Source: Bolinopsis microptera
Taxonomy: Eukaryota > Ctenophora > Tentaculata > Lobata > Bolinopsidae
Assembly: GCF_026151205.1 (NCBI RefSeq)
Contig: NC_087072.1
Coordinates: 8,232,084-8,296,083 of the forward strand
Length of the DNA: 64,000 bases
Direction: 5' to 3'
Shown: in pieces, positions 14,266 through 63,440 of the stretch
Position numbering within the stretch: position 1 is the first letter of the stretch
How the letters are laid out: each line of letters opens with the position of its first letter
Made by a program: the position numbers and the translations under genes
The notes under the pieces: model-generated
The model's input: only the letters and a program-made list of their open reading frames with translations
Database searches by the model: none
Told to the model about the DNA's origin: nothing

Positions 14266-14461
14266 TTAAGCATAAATCCTACATATAGTTTATACTTTTG
14301 TAGGGTGGGATTATATTTTATATTGTGATTAGATAGGGTAGATACAAGGGAGTTGAGTTGAGAGCGATTTAGTACAGTTTTAAACAAGAAAAGGGAAGAA
14401 AACACTTAATGTATGATTAGGTTGAAAGGCTCAGGTATATGTAGAGATATCGTGTCACAAT

Positions 14462-14494
<33 letters not shown>

Positions 14495-15707
14495 AATGGC
14501 ATAAATGGAGAAAATGGAGAATTTCTCATAGGTTTTTCCATTTTCTCCGTAGAAATACTCTCCATTTTATGCCATTGAAAAATTTAGAATTTAGAGAAAA
14601 ATTACTGTTGACAAATTTTTAGTCTCAATTTCAAAGAACAGAGGTTTTTACCCACTATGCGGGGTAGCTTACCCATGTGACTCCATATTGGACTCTAGAC
14701 AATCACGTGACTCAGCTCTAGACTCCAGACGGTGATTAGCTCTGTACTAGACAGTGGCTGCTTGCGAACAACCCTGTTAAGCTCCGCGGTTTGTAAGTCA
14801 CAAATAGAGCGTTTCTATTGGCTTTCAAATGATCACGTGATATCGATCCTGCACTCTGATTCGCTGCATCTCAGCACGCATTGCCTATAAATAGCCAGGC
14901 TAAGATACCATCGGGTTCCATTCGTTCTCTTCTAAGTCTGTTTGGCACTCTTAGCCACTAGCCAGTGCCCCTCTTCGTCTTCTCACTCATGTAGAGATAA
15001 GAGAGCCGTATCGTAGGGCATGTTTTTGTTGAGCGACGAACTCCCGTTTGTTCTTTGAATCACAGACTTTATTCCTGCTTGCTTTGAAACTTCCTCGATA
15101 TAGATCGGTTCACAACTCACAAGTGTGATCACTTGTTTCGACTTTCGAGGATGTTAGTCTCACTTCTCAGTGCCTATTACTATACCATTAAATCGATTTA
15201 ACACCGCAATTCCAGTCGCAAGCCTGGGACCACTACTAGCATAGTCACAACATCTACAAAGCTGCCATATAGCCTGACTGACAATTTTCTCGACTGACTG
15301 ACAATGTTTCTTCTTTTCCCCATTTAGAATACAAAGATTAGTACATTTTAGCTTATGATTAATATTATATTTTTACCTATAGTTTACCTAGATTCTGCTG
15401 TAGTCTGTAGAAATAACTTTACACTAGGCTTGAGTAATGGGTTTGCCTGAAGTGTGCCTCTACTAACCTAGTATAAGCATTTAGTAGCCTACTATGAGCT
15501 TTCATAAGCTTGTTACGCCCCTAGTAAGCGTAAATAAACATGTTAGGATGTCTAATTTAGGTGTTAAATGGTGTTAAAGATGAAATTTCGAAGACAAAAT
15601 TCATGGCATAAAATGGAGAATTACTCATGGGTTTTTCCATTTTCTCCATAGAAAAAGTCTCCATTTTATGCCATTTTATGCCATTTCATGCCATTGGCCT
15701 CCCCCCC
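14462..15707. mobile_element. Mobile element ending in poly-G / poly-C, 8-bp duplication GTCACAAT
   Basis: The element begins with 31 consecutive G followed by GCCAATGGCAT-like sequence, and ends with ATGCCATTGGCCT followed by seven C. A perfect 8-bp direct duplication GTCACAAT flanks it (14454-14461 and 15708-15715). Just inside each end is a ~75-bp block with TTTTTCCATTTTCTCC and TCTCCATTTTATGCCATT in direct orientation, itself hairpin-forming. The interior holds an LTR-like stretch (14676-15249). No transposase is visible. Eight-base duplications suggest a hAT-type transposase, but homopolymer ends are not typical of hAT. Confidence 0.75.
14676..15249 (+). mobile_element. Possible solo LTR inside the poly-G-ended element
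   Basis: A 574-bp segment starts TGTGACT and ends AGTCACA, the short TG..CA inverted termini typical of LTRs. A TATA box CTATAAATAG lies at about 14886, followed by a pyrimidine-rich initiator-like stretch. I find no matching 4-6-bp duplication at the edges and no internal gag/pol nearby, so it may instead be a captured promoter. Confidence 0.3.
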
Positions 15708-16109
15708 GTCACAATGTTACAAATTCCCATGGTAACTCGATCTAAATAGGGCGCAACTGGGCAGCTATTAAACCATAAAATCTTGATTCTGCCTCAATTA
15801 GACAACACAATATAATATTCGTTGACAAATATAATACTCTGGAGTGAAGTTCAGCTCACATGGCAAAGTGAGCTGTGAGTTAGGAACCTTAATTGGTTTA
15901 AGTTACTTTTTAATTAGATATCTGTCATTACATTGGGAATGGTGGGAATAGTCTGCCAAATTGATTTGATGCTAAGGTGATGAAATGTTTGGTGAAACTG
16001 AAAGTTAGCCGGTACTAGAGCTTTAATTAGTGTTAAAAAGGGTTCAGGTCCCCACATTTTTGGGTACTTGTAAGATTAAACTTTTTTCTTAACATGTTTG
16101 TTTGAGTAC

Positions 16110-17225
16110 GGGTAAACCCCCCCCCCCCCCCTAAAATGTCACCCACCCCTAAAACGCCACTCTTGATTGATTGGATCCCATCTTCTTAGAAAGTATCTTA
16201 CCTAATCATTTGTAACTCCTAAACATAAAAAATATCATTCAGACCCTGCCACATCCTGAAATTGAATCTAAATGATGCTATAAGGGCATTTTTTTTCACT
16301 TTGTACGAATTTGTACCGTAGTTTTTGACATTCAATTTTGCTAAAAGCAGTCAAATCTAGTCTATAGAGAAGGTCAGATCGATTACTGGGTTGGCTTAGT
16401 TAACTACAGGTCACTAAAATTGCCAAGATGCAGGATGATGTAAAAAATCCCAAAAAATGCAATTAAAACATGCAATTTGCACAAGGTTAAAATCACATTG
16501 AATCCATTTCTTTTGTGCCAATTGTTAGTTTATAACCTTAGTTGGTCAATACGTATTCGCACCCGGTACGGGTACGCGCGTACCGAGTTCTGGCCCCGAT
16601 AGCGGTACGTGCGTACCCGCACCCGCACCCGAAAACTCAAAAGTGAATTTGAATTTTACAGACTTTATAATTACTTTTGATGACACTGTTTGATGAACTG
16701 TGTTATCTTTGCGGATGTGTAATTGTTGAATTCCATTTTTAATATTTACTATTGTCTTTTATTTTGTCTCTGAGATAAGTGAATTCGTTTGCTTTTTAAT
16801 TTTGGCGTACCCGTATCTGCACTGGGTACGGGTGCGCGTATTTTGCCGTATTTGCGCGTACCGACTGAAATTGTGGTGGTACGCGTACCCAAGTCAGCTT
16901 TTTTGACGTATTGACCCACTAAGTTTATAACTAGATAATCTAACTACAGGTGTAAATTTTGTTGACTGAGTTACTGTTTGCTGTAAGTTCTGGGTATTCA
17001 AAAAAAAGTCCCCAAAATGTCACAAAAAGTAAATTGACTAAATTCCACCAATTTTTTTCAACAGAGAGAGAAATTCTGGTCGACACAGCACCTCTCAGAA
17101 ATAGGTTATATTAGTCCCAGAAGTGGTTAAAATTAATAATTGAGCAACATTCTGAGTGCTACACAACCTGTTTTAGCTGACGTTTTAGGGGTGGTGCACG
17201 TGAAATTTTAGGGGGTGATTACGGT
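16110..17225. mobile_element. Element with CCCCCTAAAATGTCAC-type inverted ends
   Basis: The left end carries C15 then TAAAATGTCACCCACCCCTAAAACG. The right end carries the inverse of a close relative (CACCCCTAAAACG, then CCCCCTAAAATTTCAC when read on the minus strand). An imperfect duplication, TTTGAGTAC versus TTTGAGGTAC, flanks it. A separate element (16537-16923) is inserted in its middle. The exact ends are uncertain. Confidence 0.55.
16537..16923. mobile_element. hAT-like MITE with 8-bp duplication TTTATAAC, nested
   Basis: A 387-bp element has inverted ends CTTAGTTGGTCAATACG / CTTAGTGGGTCAATACG and a perfect 8-bp duplication TTTATAAC at 16529-16536 and 16924-16931. Its subterminal regions are GC-rich and full of GGTACGGGTACGCGCGTACC-like palindromes, possible transposase binding sites. 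It sits inside the older element at 16110-17225. Confidence 0.8.
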
Positions 17226-28436: not shown

Positions 28437-29065
28437 TTAATCCCGACGGGATTCCCGAATCCCGGGATTTCAGTCAGAAATTCCCGACCGGGAAATTTTG
28501 TCAACGGAATTTTAAATATTTGTGTAACTCTGCGCGCGTCTTGTATTGGTAGGTTTTACCTGGAGACCTCTGGCCACCATGTTAATAAACATAATGATCA
28601 GGCGGAATGACATGCTGAGCGCCGCCCAGTTAAGTGACTTGAAGTTGATGAGGCAGCTCAAGTTGGGTCATGAGGTGGGTAAACGGGTGATAGTCGTAAA
28701 ATATCTGTTCCATATATTAGGACCGTCGACGAGTCCAACTCGACGCACGTCCTGGTAGGTTGTAAAACTACAAGAGTTTGGTCATGGCACGGATCGTGAT
28801 TGATTGACGATGTTAATTCATCGGCATTTGTATAGCGCTATGCGTTACTAGGCCGCACACTCAATTATGCTTCTCGCTAGATCGTAAGATCGGCGGGATG
28901 CACTACTGGGCCTCGTCGAACTGCGAACAATTGAAATCGTCAATTAAGGCGGCATTTGCTTTCAGGAATCCCAAGTCCCCCCCCCCCCCGATTTTTGGGA
29001 ATCCCGGGATTACTTTTGGTTGGGATTCCAAAATCCCGGGATTGAATATTTTGATCGGGATTGAC
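28437..29065. mobile_element. hAT-like remnant with AATCCCGGGATT palindromes
   Basis: The left edge has AATCCCGACGGGATT and AATCCCGGGATT. The right edge has the same palindrome and ATCGGGATT in inverse order, so the ends form imperfect inverted repeats. A C-run (28978-28990) lies near the right end. The interior frame 28546-28758 is not recognisable. The ends are not sharply defined because no duplication was found. Confidence 0.45.
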
Positions 29066-30339: not shown

Positions 30340-32185
30340 ATATTTTCTCATTGGATTTGATTTTTGTAGAGAGCTAATATACCTTCTTTGATCATGCACT
30401 CCATTTAACAAATTTTGCTTGTTCCTTTGTTTGTTGCAATCATTCAGTTGATCATTCGGCGGATGATTCAAAGGGCCGGGACATATTTTAATGTTAAATT
30501 CTCAATAACCAGCAGACTTGTTACCTGCAGTTACCTTGCTACACTTTTGTCTTTTGCAATTGGACTTTAGATTTATTTTCTCATTGGATTAGATTTTTGT
30601 AGGGAGCTAATATACCTTCTTTGATCATGCACTCCATTTAACAAATTTTGCTTGTTTCTTTGTCTGTTGCAATCATTCGGTTGATCATTCGGCGGATGCT
30701 CCAAAGGGCCGGGACATATTTTAATGTTAAATTCTCAATAACCAGCAGACTTGTTACCTGCATGGTTACCTTGCTACACTTTTGTCATTTGCAATTGGAC
30801 TTTAGATTTATTTTCTCATTGGATTAGATTTTTGTAGGGAGCTAATATACCTTCTTTGATCATGCACTCCATTTAACAAATTTTGCTTGTTCCTTTGTTT
30901 GTTGCAATCATTCAGTTGATCATTCGGCGGATGATTCAAAGGGCCGGGACATATTTTAATGTTAAATTCTCAATAACCAGCAGACTTGTTACCCATGCAG
31001 TTACCTTGCTACACTTTTGTCTTTTGCAATTGGACTTTAGATTTATTTTCTCATTGGATTAGATTTTTGTAGGGAGCTAATATACCTTCTTTGATCATGC
31101 ACTCCATTTAACAAATTTTGCTTGTTCCTTTGTTTGTTGCAATCATTCAGTTGATCATTCGGCGGATGATTCAAAGGGCCGGGACATATTTTAATGTTAA
31201 ATTCTCAATAACCAGCAGACTTGTTACCTGCAGTTACCTTGCTACACTTTTGTCTTTTGCAATTGGACTTTAGATTTATTTTCTCATTGGATTAGATTTT
31301 TGTAGGGAGCTAATATACCTTCTTTGATCATGCACTCCATTTAACAAATTTTGCTTGTTTCTTTGTCTGTTGCAATCATTCGGTTGATCATTCGGCGGAT
31401 GATTCAAAGGGCCGGGACATATTTTAATGTTAAATTCTCAATAACCAGCAGACTTGTTACCAGTTACCTTACTACACTTTTGTCATTTGCAATTGGACTT
31501 TGGATTTATTTTCTCATTGGATTAGATTTTTGTAGGGAGCTAATTATATACCTTCTTTGATCATGCACTCCATTTAACAAATGTTGCTTGTTCCTTTGTT
31601 TGTTGCAATCATTCAGTTGATCATTCGGCGGATGATTCAAAGGGCCGGGACATATTTTAATGTTAAATTCTCAATAACCAGCAGACTTGTTACCTGCAGT
31701 TACCTTGCTACACTTTTGTCTTTTGCAATTGGACTTTAGATTTATTTTCTCATTGGATTAGATTTTTGTAGGGAGCTAATATACCTTCTTTGATCATGCA
31801 CTCCATTTAACAAATTTTGCTTGTTTCCTTGTCTGTTGCAATCATTCGGTTGATCATTCGGCGGATGATTCAAAGGGCCGGGACATATTTTAATGTTAAA
31901 TTCTCAATAACCAGCAGACTTGTTACCAGTTACCTTACTACACTTTTGTCATTTGCAATTGGACTTTGGATTTATTTTTTCATTGGATTAGATTTTTGTA
32001 GGGAGCTAATATACCTTCTTTGATCATGCACTCCATTTAACAAATTTTGCTTGTTCCTTTGTTTGTTTCAATCATTCAGTTGATCATTCGGCGGATGATT
32101 CAAAGGGCCGGGACATATTTTAATGTTAAATTTTGAATAACCAGCAGACTTGTTACCAGTTACCTTATTACACTTTTGTCATTTG
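30340..32185. repeat. Satellite array, about eight copies of a ~233-bp unit
   Basis: The landmark ATCATTCGGCGGATG recurs eight times (about 30453, 30686, 30925, 31157, 31387, 31624, 31856, 32087), giving periods of 230-239 bp. Two subtypes are distinguishable by GTTTGTTGCAATCATTCAG (A) or GTCTGTTGCAATCATTCGG (B), in the order A B A A B A B A. Differences are small, so homogenisation or recent expansion is likely. Frames such as 31351-31560 and 31817-32023 are merely the repeat read in one frame. Confidence 0.9.
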
Positions 32186-32214
32186 CAATAGTACATTTGT
32201 TAAATGTACTATTG
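32186..32214. repeat. 29-nt hairpin at the end of the satellite array
   Basis: Thirteen-base perfect arms (CAATAGTACATTT and inverse) enclose a 3-nt loop, exactly where the satellite similarity stops. Confidence 0.8.
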
Positions 32215-36504: not shown

Positions 36505-37750
36505 TTGTCCTTGCATTTTAGAGTTCCGTCTAGCACCAGTTCTATGTTGTTGACCATGATCGGGGGGGGGGGGGGGGGGGGGGGCTTACGTCAACGATTT
36601 TACCCCGAGTCCCCATGATTTTTAGTCCCCAAAAGTCTCCATTAGTCCCCATTTAGATGATTTTTAGTCCCCAAAAGTCTCCATTAGTCCCCATTTAGAT
36701 TTATCCTACTCTTATCTTGGACAAAACATCTCGATCGTATCGTTATTAAACTAACTTGAAAACCATAAATAACTGTCAAAAATTCTGGGGACTTATGGGG
36801 ACAAATGGTGAATTACGTCAACGAGTTGACCTCTAGTCCCCATGATTTTTAGTCCCCATTAGTCCCCAAAAGTCTCCATTGGTAGTCATTGGCCCCCCCC
36901 CCCCCCCCCCCCCCCCCATGATCTTTTGAGTCCTTGTCAAAGAGGACGGGGCAAATTTTGCAGCTAGGTCCATTACACCTCTGTAATTGTCCTACATCAA
37001 GGGTTTCCAGTTGTCCCAGTAGTCGATTCTTTTCTAGTGTATTACCGATTGAAGGGTGTTTCCTAGTGGCAGATACTATCCGTACATCCCCACATAACAT
37101 TAACCTAGTAGCTTAATGACCAGATTAAGTTCTTAACCAACTTTGTAAGACTAATGTTATCAAGAGTGTTGTACGGAAAATACGAGGCTCTGTTGTGTCT
37201 TATCCTCAGTGTCTCTGGTTGGATTTCCTGGGTTCTCAATAGACCTCTGTATTGCTTTCGGCTCGATTTCTTCTAGTTTGTCACCGTTGTTGTTGTGTCC
37301 GCATCTGGCAAGATCCTCCTTTAGTTCGCCCAGGTCCTCTACACATGGTGGGGTTGGAAACTACATATGTATCTGATCTCAAGTAGTTCCTAGCATCTGT
37401 TTCCTTTCTAAATAGCTTGTACCAGATCTGATTTTCTGAGTCCAAGCTCAAGGTAAGGTCTAAAAAGTTAACCTTGATTCTATATGGTTCTGCCAGTTTG
37501 ATTTAGCCAGTTTGTTCAACAATTCGACAAACATTGTAAATTGTCCCGCTGTCCCCATCCACACTCCAAATATGTCGTCGATGAATCTCTCCCAAAAGTT
37601 TATCAGGGTCGCACTCTTTATCTTTTTGCTAACCTTTTTGAAGAGCAACCAATGCATAGTAACGTCTGACACTTGTCTGGAGATACAGTTTCCAGTAGTA
37701 GGCATGAGGCAGGGAAAATTAGTGTGTGACTGATTTAAGCAGTTGGTCAC
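36505..37750 (-). pseudogene. Penelope-like retroelement fragment, interrupted and frameshifted
   Basis: Read on the minus strand from 37750, the remnant shows a reverse-transcriptase block with FWERFIDDIFGVWMGT (the catalytic DD pair), then VNFLDLTLSLD and a YKLFRKETDARNYL block. Towards its end come HPSIGNTL and RCNGPSCKICPVL, and on the far side of an inserted element GTLKCKDKHVIYLI. That order of RT followed by a C-rich connector leading into a GIY-YIG-type endonuclease is typical of Penelope-like elements. Frameshifts and two insertions (36370-36500 and 36562-36915) show it is dead. Confidence 0.65.
36562..36915. mobile_element. Mobile element ending in G23 / C23, 8-bp duplication CCATGATC
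   Basis: A 354-bp element starts with exactly 23 G and ends with exactly 23 C, so the terminal inverted repeat is a homopolymer. CCATGATC flanks it on both sides (36554-36561 and 36916-36923). The interior is built of repeated AGTCCCCATGATTTTTAGTC and AAAAGTCTCCATTAGTCCCC blocks, in direct orientation near both ends. The right end CATTGGCC followed by C-run matches the right end of the 14462-15707 element. It is inserted in a Penelope-like coding remnant, so the empty site can be inferred. Confidence 0.85.
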
Positions 37751-38016
37751 CAGAGTTCAGTTCGAGTACTAATTTTAAGGAAATTAGTGACGTTTTATTG
37801 CTAATAAAATTGATTTGAATTCACGTATTTTTGTTGACGTTAACAAGGCTCATACCTCCCCCTCCTGTCAGCAACCGTCAGCATTTCCAAATACCCTTTT
37901 CCCTCGGCTGCTGACGTCATACATGAACGCTCGCTTATGTTAGCTATACATTTTGTAACAGCAACATTTACATTGTATTATGTATTATATTGTATTATGT
38001 AATTACATTAAATGAC

Positions 38017-38591
38017 GGGTGGGCGACAATTTACCCCCCGACAATTAACCCCCCGACAATATAATTTAATACAATTAACCCTGACCCTGACCCTGACCCT
38101 GACCCTGACCCTGACCCTGACCCTGACCCTGACCCTGATCCAGGACCCTGACCCTGACCCTGACCCTGACCCTGACCCTGACCCTGACCCTGACCCTGAC
38201 CCTGACCCTGACCCTAACCCTAACCCTAACCCTAACCCTAACCCTAGGCCTGACCCTGACCCTGACCCTGACCCTGACCCTGACCCTGACCCTGACCCTG
38301 ACCCTGATCCAGGACCCTGACCCTGACCACTGACTCTGACCCTGACCCTGACCCTAACCCGATCAATTGACCCAGTGTAATTACATGGGGGTCAATTGTC
38401 GTACTAAGTCCTAGATTTCGCGACAATTGACCCTAGTTTAATTACATAGGTAGGGGGTCAATTGTCGGTGGGTCAATTTTCGGGGGGCCAATTGTCGTAC
38501 TAAACCGGGCTAGATTTCGCGACAATTGACCCCAGTGTAATTACATAGGGGGTCAATTGTCGGGGGGTCAATTCACAATTGTCGCGGTACC
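38017..38591. mobile_element. Mobile element carrying telomere-like repeats, 8-bp duplication TAAATGAC
   Basis: A 575-bp element is flanked by perfect TAAATGAC duplications (38009-38016 and 38592-38599). The outer parts hold inverted copies of CCCCCCGACAATT-type blocks with GCGACAATT near each end. The core (about 38078-38360) is (CCCTGA)n with a block of CCCTAA units at about 38212-38246 and an internal symmetry around GATCCAGGACCC. CCCTAA is the animal telomere repeat. The long D/P- and Q/G-type frames here are translation of the repeat and not genes. Confidence 0.8.

Positions 38592-46822: not shown

Positions 46823-46854
<32 letters not shown>

Positions 46855-58879: not shown

Positions 58880-63440
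<4,561 letters not shown>

Follow-up and report, generated by a model that had tools for sequence, protein, structure and literature searches.

A recurrent poly-G end type on non-autonomous DNA transposons of Bolinopsis microptera

The window, a 64,000-nucleotide stretch of Bolinopsis microptera DNA, contains two elements with G-tract ends, designated F1 and F2 (Table 1), the second of which repeats the anatomy of the first around a different interior. A first-pass annotation had reported a G/C homopolymer-ended element with an 8-bp duplication at the F1 position, and re-analysis confirmed its presence: the element spans positions 36562–36917 (G23...C25) and is bounded on both sides by CCATGATC. 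Because this duplication itself opens with CC, the last two C of the run, the right tract may be read either as C25 or, if the CC is assigned to the duplication, as C23. No recognisable coding frame was present in the F1 interior. The insertion site lies within a dispersed repeat, although its proposed Penelope-like identity was not confirmed, all three pieces being without a Pfam match. Overlapping matches to G12 numbered 67 in the window, as against none in 100 dinucleotide shuffles.

Table 1. Coordinates of the two G-tract elements and their flanking duplications in the window.
Feature	Positions	Strand
F1 left target-site duplication CCATGATC	36554..36561	.
G tract, 23 G, forming the F1 left end; inner core missing in this copy	36562..36584	+	
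F1 interior with subterminal AGTCCCC-type repeats, closed by right core GTAGTCATTGG	36585..36892	+	
C tract, 25 C, the final two overlapping the duplication	36893..36917	+	
F1 right target-site duplication CCATGATC	36916..36923	.
F2 left target-site duplication GTCACAAT	14454..14461	.	
F2 element, G31 CCAATGGCATAAATGGAG ... CATTGGCCTCCCCCCC	14462..15708	+	
F2 right target-site duplication GTCACAAT	15709..15716	.	

Four lone runs were also noted in the window (G24 at 46831–46854, C13 at 231–243, C15 at 16117–16131 and C13 at 28977–28989), and looking up their flanking 8-mers yielded no convincing partner for any of them. Other repeats in the window include a tandem array of a 233-bp unit at 30341–32189 (7.9 copies, 95% matches), a short-unit satellite at 38012–38391 that is read as GQGQ or PDPD and has related repeats in the hAT locus L054, and a long CT/AG dinucleotide array at 60988–61659 that constitutes a false Ser-Leu frame. 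Both GC and AT skew jump at 60–62 kb.

Comparison of the 310-bp F1 interior with the 264.65-Mb genome returned at least 42 matched stretches (40 of 221 candidates were scored), from which it follows that F1 is a dispersed family, as befits the transposable element that had been proposed. The 30 loci fetched comprised ten copies of one insertion (L009–L018), copied along with the longer dispersed repeat surrounding it, and 20 separate insertions. The nine copies of the former besides the window's own had 1.8–3.4 kb in common with the window, at 95.5–98.2% identity over the longest alignment; the duplication was recognised by script in eight of the ten and by eye in L014, while the left side of L013 was truncated. 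Exact 8-bp duplications were found by script in 15 of the 20 separate insertions, rising to 18 with by-eye calls for L021, L022 and L030, in which the tract is interrupted by a few other bases; the duplication of L029 had one mismatch, and L024 showed no clean duplication.

For long F1 copies, GGGGGGCCAATGACTAC was located at 123 genomic places (control 0); the first 100 of these included 11 convergent pairs separated by 1–10 kb, all of which were read, their ends being 1.5–9.4 kb apart. Ten of these 11 had an 8-bp duplication, although in L058 and L078 two bases of the tract must be included to reach that length, and the duplication of L077 measured 7 bp.

Directly inside the G tract, the F1 core is (C)CAATGACTAC, or TAATGACTAC in a subfamily, the two ends of a copy usually being of the same type, and it reads CAATG or TAATG. 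The intact terminal repeat is G(n)CCAATGACTAC, and not the pure G or C of the original description. In the sister copies of the window's insertion, CCAATGACTACTTTTGGGGACTTGGGGAA separates the G run from TTACGTC, a stretch reduced to one C in the window copy; the left repeat thus appeared to be pure G because of a deletion in that copy. A 27-bp left core used as a query without any required G located 50 exact genomic places (backward control 0), 42 of which fell within the first 100 places of the GGGGGGCCAATGACTAC search. Among these 42 F1 ends, found by the inner anchor alone, at least six G lay directly outside the inner core in 39, the three exceptions being the truncated L013, L018 (in which G19 is separated from the core by CCCGGG) and one unread place. 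The homopolymer ends belong to the element, as had been supposed, and the end type, which recurs in many copies, is not the accident of one of them.

An equivalent search with F2 returned at least 104 matched stretches (40 of 992 first-look candidates were scored), those beyond the window's own falling chiefly in the 300 bp at the right, at the left end and in portions of the middle. Matching 8-mers were present at the tract edges in all ten copies read at both ends, L090 being G-rich and ambiguous, and the expectation that other copies would carry 8-bp duplications therefore held for both families. No transposase coding frame was found in either F1 or F2. A separate observation concerns the F2 interior at window positions 14662–15181 (~520 bp, with a TATA-like word), which recurred at 86–93% identity in no more than five of the 40 candidates that were scored, and resembles captured cargo.

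Four further G-tract families, F3–F6, were encountered as single or nested elements only. F3, in L004, measures 68 bp with a 7-bp match; F5, in L081, extends over 8.6 kb with CAAAAGAT as its target; and F6 lies in L072, the C9 runs of L064 and L072 being those of F6. F4 was found in L055, L056, L059 and L080 with identical flanks in all four, and a clean 8-bp duplication was not found for it at these loci. The F4 nested in these F1 copies holds kilobases of TCCTCC-type minisatellite, and the F1 plus F4 composites (4–8 kb) occupy four sites that each have a different duplication, which indicates that the composite moved as a unit. In the poly-G families that were paired, both ends have their G on the 5' side.

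Two empty sites established the provenance of the tract. The F5 target CAAAAGAT, which is filled by F5 in L081, was present in L057 with neither F5 nor a G run, and an F2 copy (L084/L085) lies within a tandem array whose intact units represent the target ACTCAGGC with no tract; the tract consequently comes with the element. An alternative in which elements inserted into microsatellites of G or C that were already in place has a precedent in pineapple MITEs that target microsatellites (PMC8449440), but here the duplication is not G and stands beyond the tract, one side carries G and the other C, and both of the empty sites examined exclude it, so that we regard its probability as negligible.

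Long G runs abound in the genome as a whole, in which overlapping G20 words on both strands numbered 76,833 versus 44,438 for A20. Convergent G and C runs, put forward initially as a mark of further elements, were in little excess when overlapping G12/C12 pairs were counted at one spacing, which misses F1 (615 convergent versus 571 divergent); most G runs at the tested spacing are therefore not ends of such elements. Poly-G element ends account for a part of the genome's long G runs.

The tract proved to have no fixed length: in place of the exact 23 first reported, values ranged from 7 to 48. Within the one copied F1 insertion, tracts measured 14–48 at the A end (n = 8) and 13–25 at the B end (n = 10), while among independent insertions the two ends gave 7–39 (n = 29) and 7–34 (n = 31), lengths which may in each case include read error in the assembly. 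The variance of the copied insertion (18 ends) was equivalent to that of the independent insertions (60 ends; Levene p 0.61), with a trend towards slightly longer tracts in the former (Mann-Whitney p 0.07). Equal variance implies that change after insertion suffices for the whole range, and that neither a variable cut nor base addition at insertion is necessary. Of the two origins first suggested for the homopolymers, slippage was thereby supported and terminal addition was not needed. Counting against slippage is a negative correlation between left and right tract lengths in F1 (rho −0.50, n = 31, permutation p 0.005), since simple independent slippage does not predict it; replication direction is a conceivable cause. 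The equivalent value for F2 was rho 0.02 (n = 11).

These data are best accounted for, in our judgement probably correctly, by regarding F1 and F2 as non-autonomous cut-and-paste DNA transposons, likely of the hAT superfamily, with G-tract ends that drift by slippage after insertion. The ends would consist of a G tract with (C)CAATGRC directly inside it, and a short tract would travel as part of the terminal repeat, a minimal G seed presumably being part of the end recognised by a transposase supplied in trans. Insertion would duplicate 8 bp of target immediately next to the tract, and the tract would thereafter act as a mononucleotide microsatellite and change in length through replication slippage.

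A different interpretation holds that the tract is itself a selected, non-drifting recognition and cutting signal, the homopolymer or a quadruplex being bound and the DNA cut at the outer edge of a tract of any length. F1, F2 and their like would then represent a DNA-transposon lineage in which a homopolymer G end, perhaps as a quadruplex, served as a length-tolerant cutting signal common to families with unrelated interiors, the transposase finding the outer edge of the tract and not a fixed distance from a motif. Retention of the tract in 39 of 42 F1 ends, with a minimum of 7 in measured ends, its recurrence across families with different interiors, and duplications flush with tracts of widely differing length are all in keeping with such a signal; drift within one copied insertion, however, already yields the full range of lengths, and readable hAT ends of the same genome lack a tract, which leaves this interpretation rather unlikely. 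Markedly less probable still is that each insertion involves new G residues, untemplated or supplied by a repair polymerase, placed where the cut end joins the target. The position of the tract exactly between core and duplication, and the tract-free empty sites, would suit such a process, but tract length varies to the same extent in the copied insertion and in independent ones, which makes it unnecessary, and the presence of G on the same 5' side at both ends of paired families is not an outcome that untemplated addition would have to produce.

The terminal repeat consensus of hAT elements begins YARNG. The CAATG or TAATG of F1 and the CAATG of F2 and F6 fit this consensus only once the G tract is disregarded, in many cases together with one C, and the cores of F3, F4 and F5 do not fit it, a result which counts against hAT. 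The assignment of the poly-G elements to hAT is consequently provisional, and was made because of the 8-bp duplication, the CAATG/TAATG core as compared with this consensus, and the repeats inside the ends. The target pattern nTnnnnAn, a feature of the Hermes-type subgroup of hAT (PMC10368747), was not seen in 80 targets (T2/A7 in 27 of 80, p 0.63), again counting against hAT; the targets instead exhibited a weak palindromic preference (Y3/R6 in 63 of 80, p 2e-7).

At least 150 hAT-domain transposase matches were detected in the genome (365 candidates), and none of the ten loci read (L039–L046, L053 and L054) had poly-G ends. Script-recognised hAT ends were obtained at five of these ten, belonged to at most three kinds (CAGGGGTCGACC, CAGTGGCGTAAC), and were accompanied by 8-bp duplications with no G tract, a further argument against the hAT assignment; G runs of at least 12 were present in L043, L045 and L054, but outside the hAT ends. 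One hAT family, represented by L053 and six more places, had seven matches in open frames of 513–530 aa, with CAGTGGCGTAAC ends in the single one read, and was perhaps recently active. Searches for P-type (PF21787) and KDZ (Zisupton and kin; PF18758) transposases gave no genome matches, as was also the case with the control genomes.

Nor was an autonomous copy carrying a transposase between poly-G ends, as the first-pass annotation had envisaged, found among the 11 long F1 copies. Their extra length was attributable to a Mutator-like element (MULE) in L057, to F4 in L055, L056, L059 and L080, to F5 with a reverse-transcriptase frame in L081, and to a reverse-transcriptase frame in L078, and no transposase was found in the extra sequence of L058, L060, L077 and L079. 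The L057 MULE, which has FLYWCH and MULE domains, was considered as a partner and rejected when comparison with L074–L076 identified it as a separate nested element. The FLYWCH plus MULE family (L057:467–3331 and L073–L076) has inverted ends of ~600 bp and a 9-bp duplication, and in L073 a single 501-aa open frame contains both domains.

The presence of those domains inside an F1 copy, together with the 8–11 bp duplications of MULEs (PMC6446971), might suggest that the poly-G elements are themselves MULEs of the animal FLYWCH type. This is highly improbable: the L057 element is nested, with long inverted ends of its own and a 9-bp duplication, its copies elsewhere (L074–L076) lack poly-G ends, and no MULE with G(n)CCAATG ends occurred among the loci read, G-tract ends being sought in 12 loci plus L073–L076 and seen in none. 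A Merlin affiliation is to be doubted just as strongly. The genome contains 58 Merlin-type transposase matches, and L049 and L051 have 8-bp duplications with ends GGCAGTCTACAA, Merlin starting with GG as the poly-G elements do; but ends were recognised in only two of the six loci read (L047–L052), and these had no G tract and different cores.

Transposon ends are normally fixed sequences. The repeated end type described here is real and occurs on otherwise ordinary non-autonomous DNA transposons, the likely mechanism being a G-initial terminal repeat that drifts in length by slippage. Ends made of a hypervariable G microsatellite pose the question of how a transposase would locate the cut site, and a direct role for the homopolymer in recognition, which is conceivable, would if true be an exciting case. 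Repeat finders and homopolymer masking can also readily truncate ends of this kind. A full-text literature search, judged by titles and abstract starts and with Repbase and subscription papers outside its scope, yielded no description that was recognised as concerning poly-G transposon ends.

Among the closest systems are the BuT2-related hAT non-autonomous elements (MITEs) of Drosophila (PMC3942097), which, like F1 and F2, are short and non-coding with 8-bp duplications, inverted ends and repeats inside the ends; F1 and F2 differ in the variable G tract between core and duplication, in that a partner transposase was not found, and in the absence of the Hermes target pattern. The microsatellite-associated MITEs of pineapple (PMC8449440) similarly place a MITE beside a simple repeat, but they enter (TA)n, whereas F1 and F2 bring their own G tract. 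FLYWCH-type animal MULEs of the Phantom group (PMC6446971) have duplications of similar length, and one is nested in an F1 copy, but unlike F1 the FLYWCH-type MULE found here has its own ends, a 9-bp duplication and no G tract. Caenorhabditis genomes likewise contain many long poly-G/poly-C tracts (PMC2211496); the main text of that paper includes neither 'transpos' nor 'inverted repeat', whereas in the present genome some of the tracts are the ends of elements.
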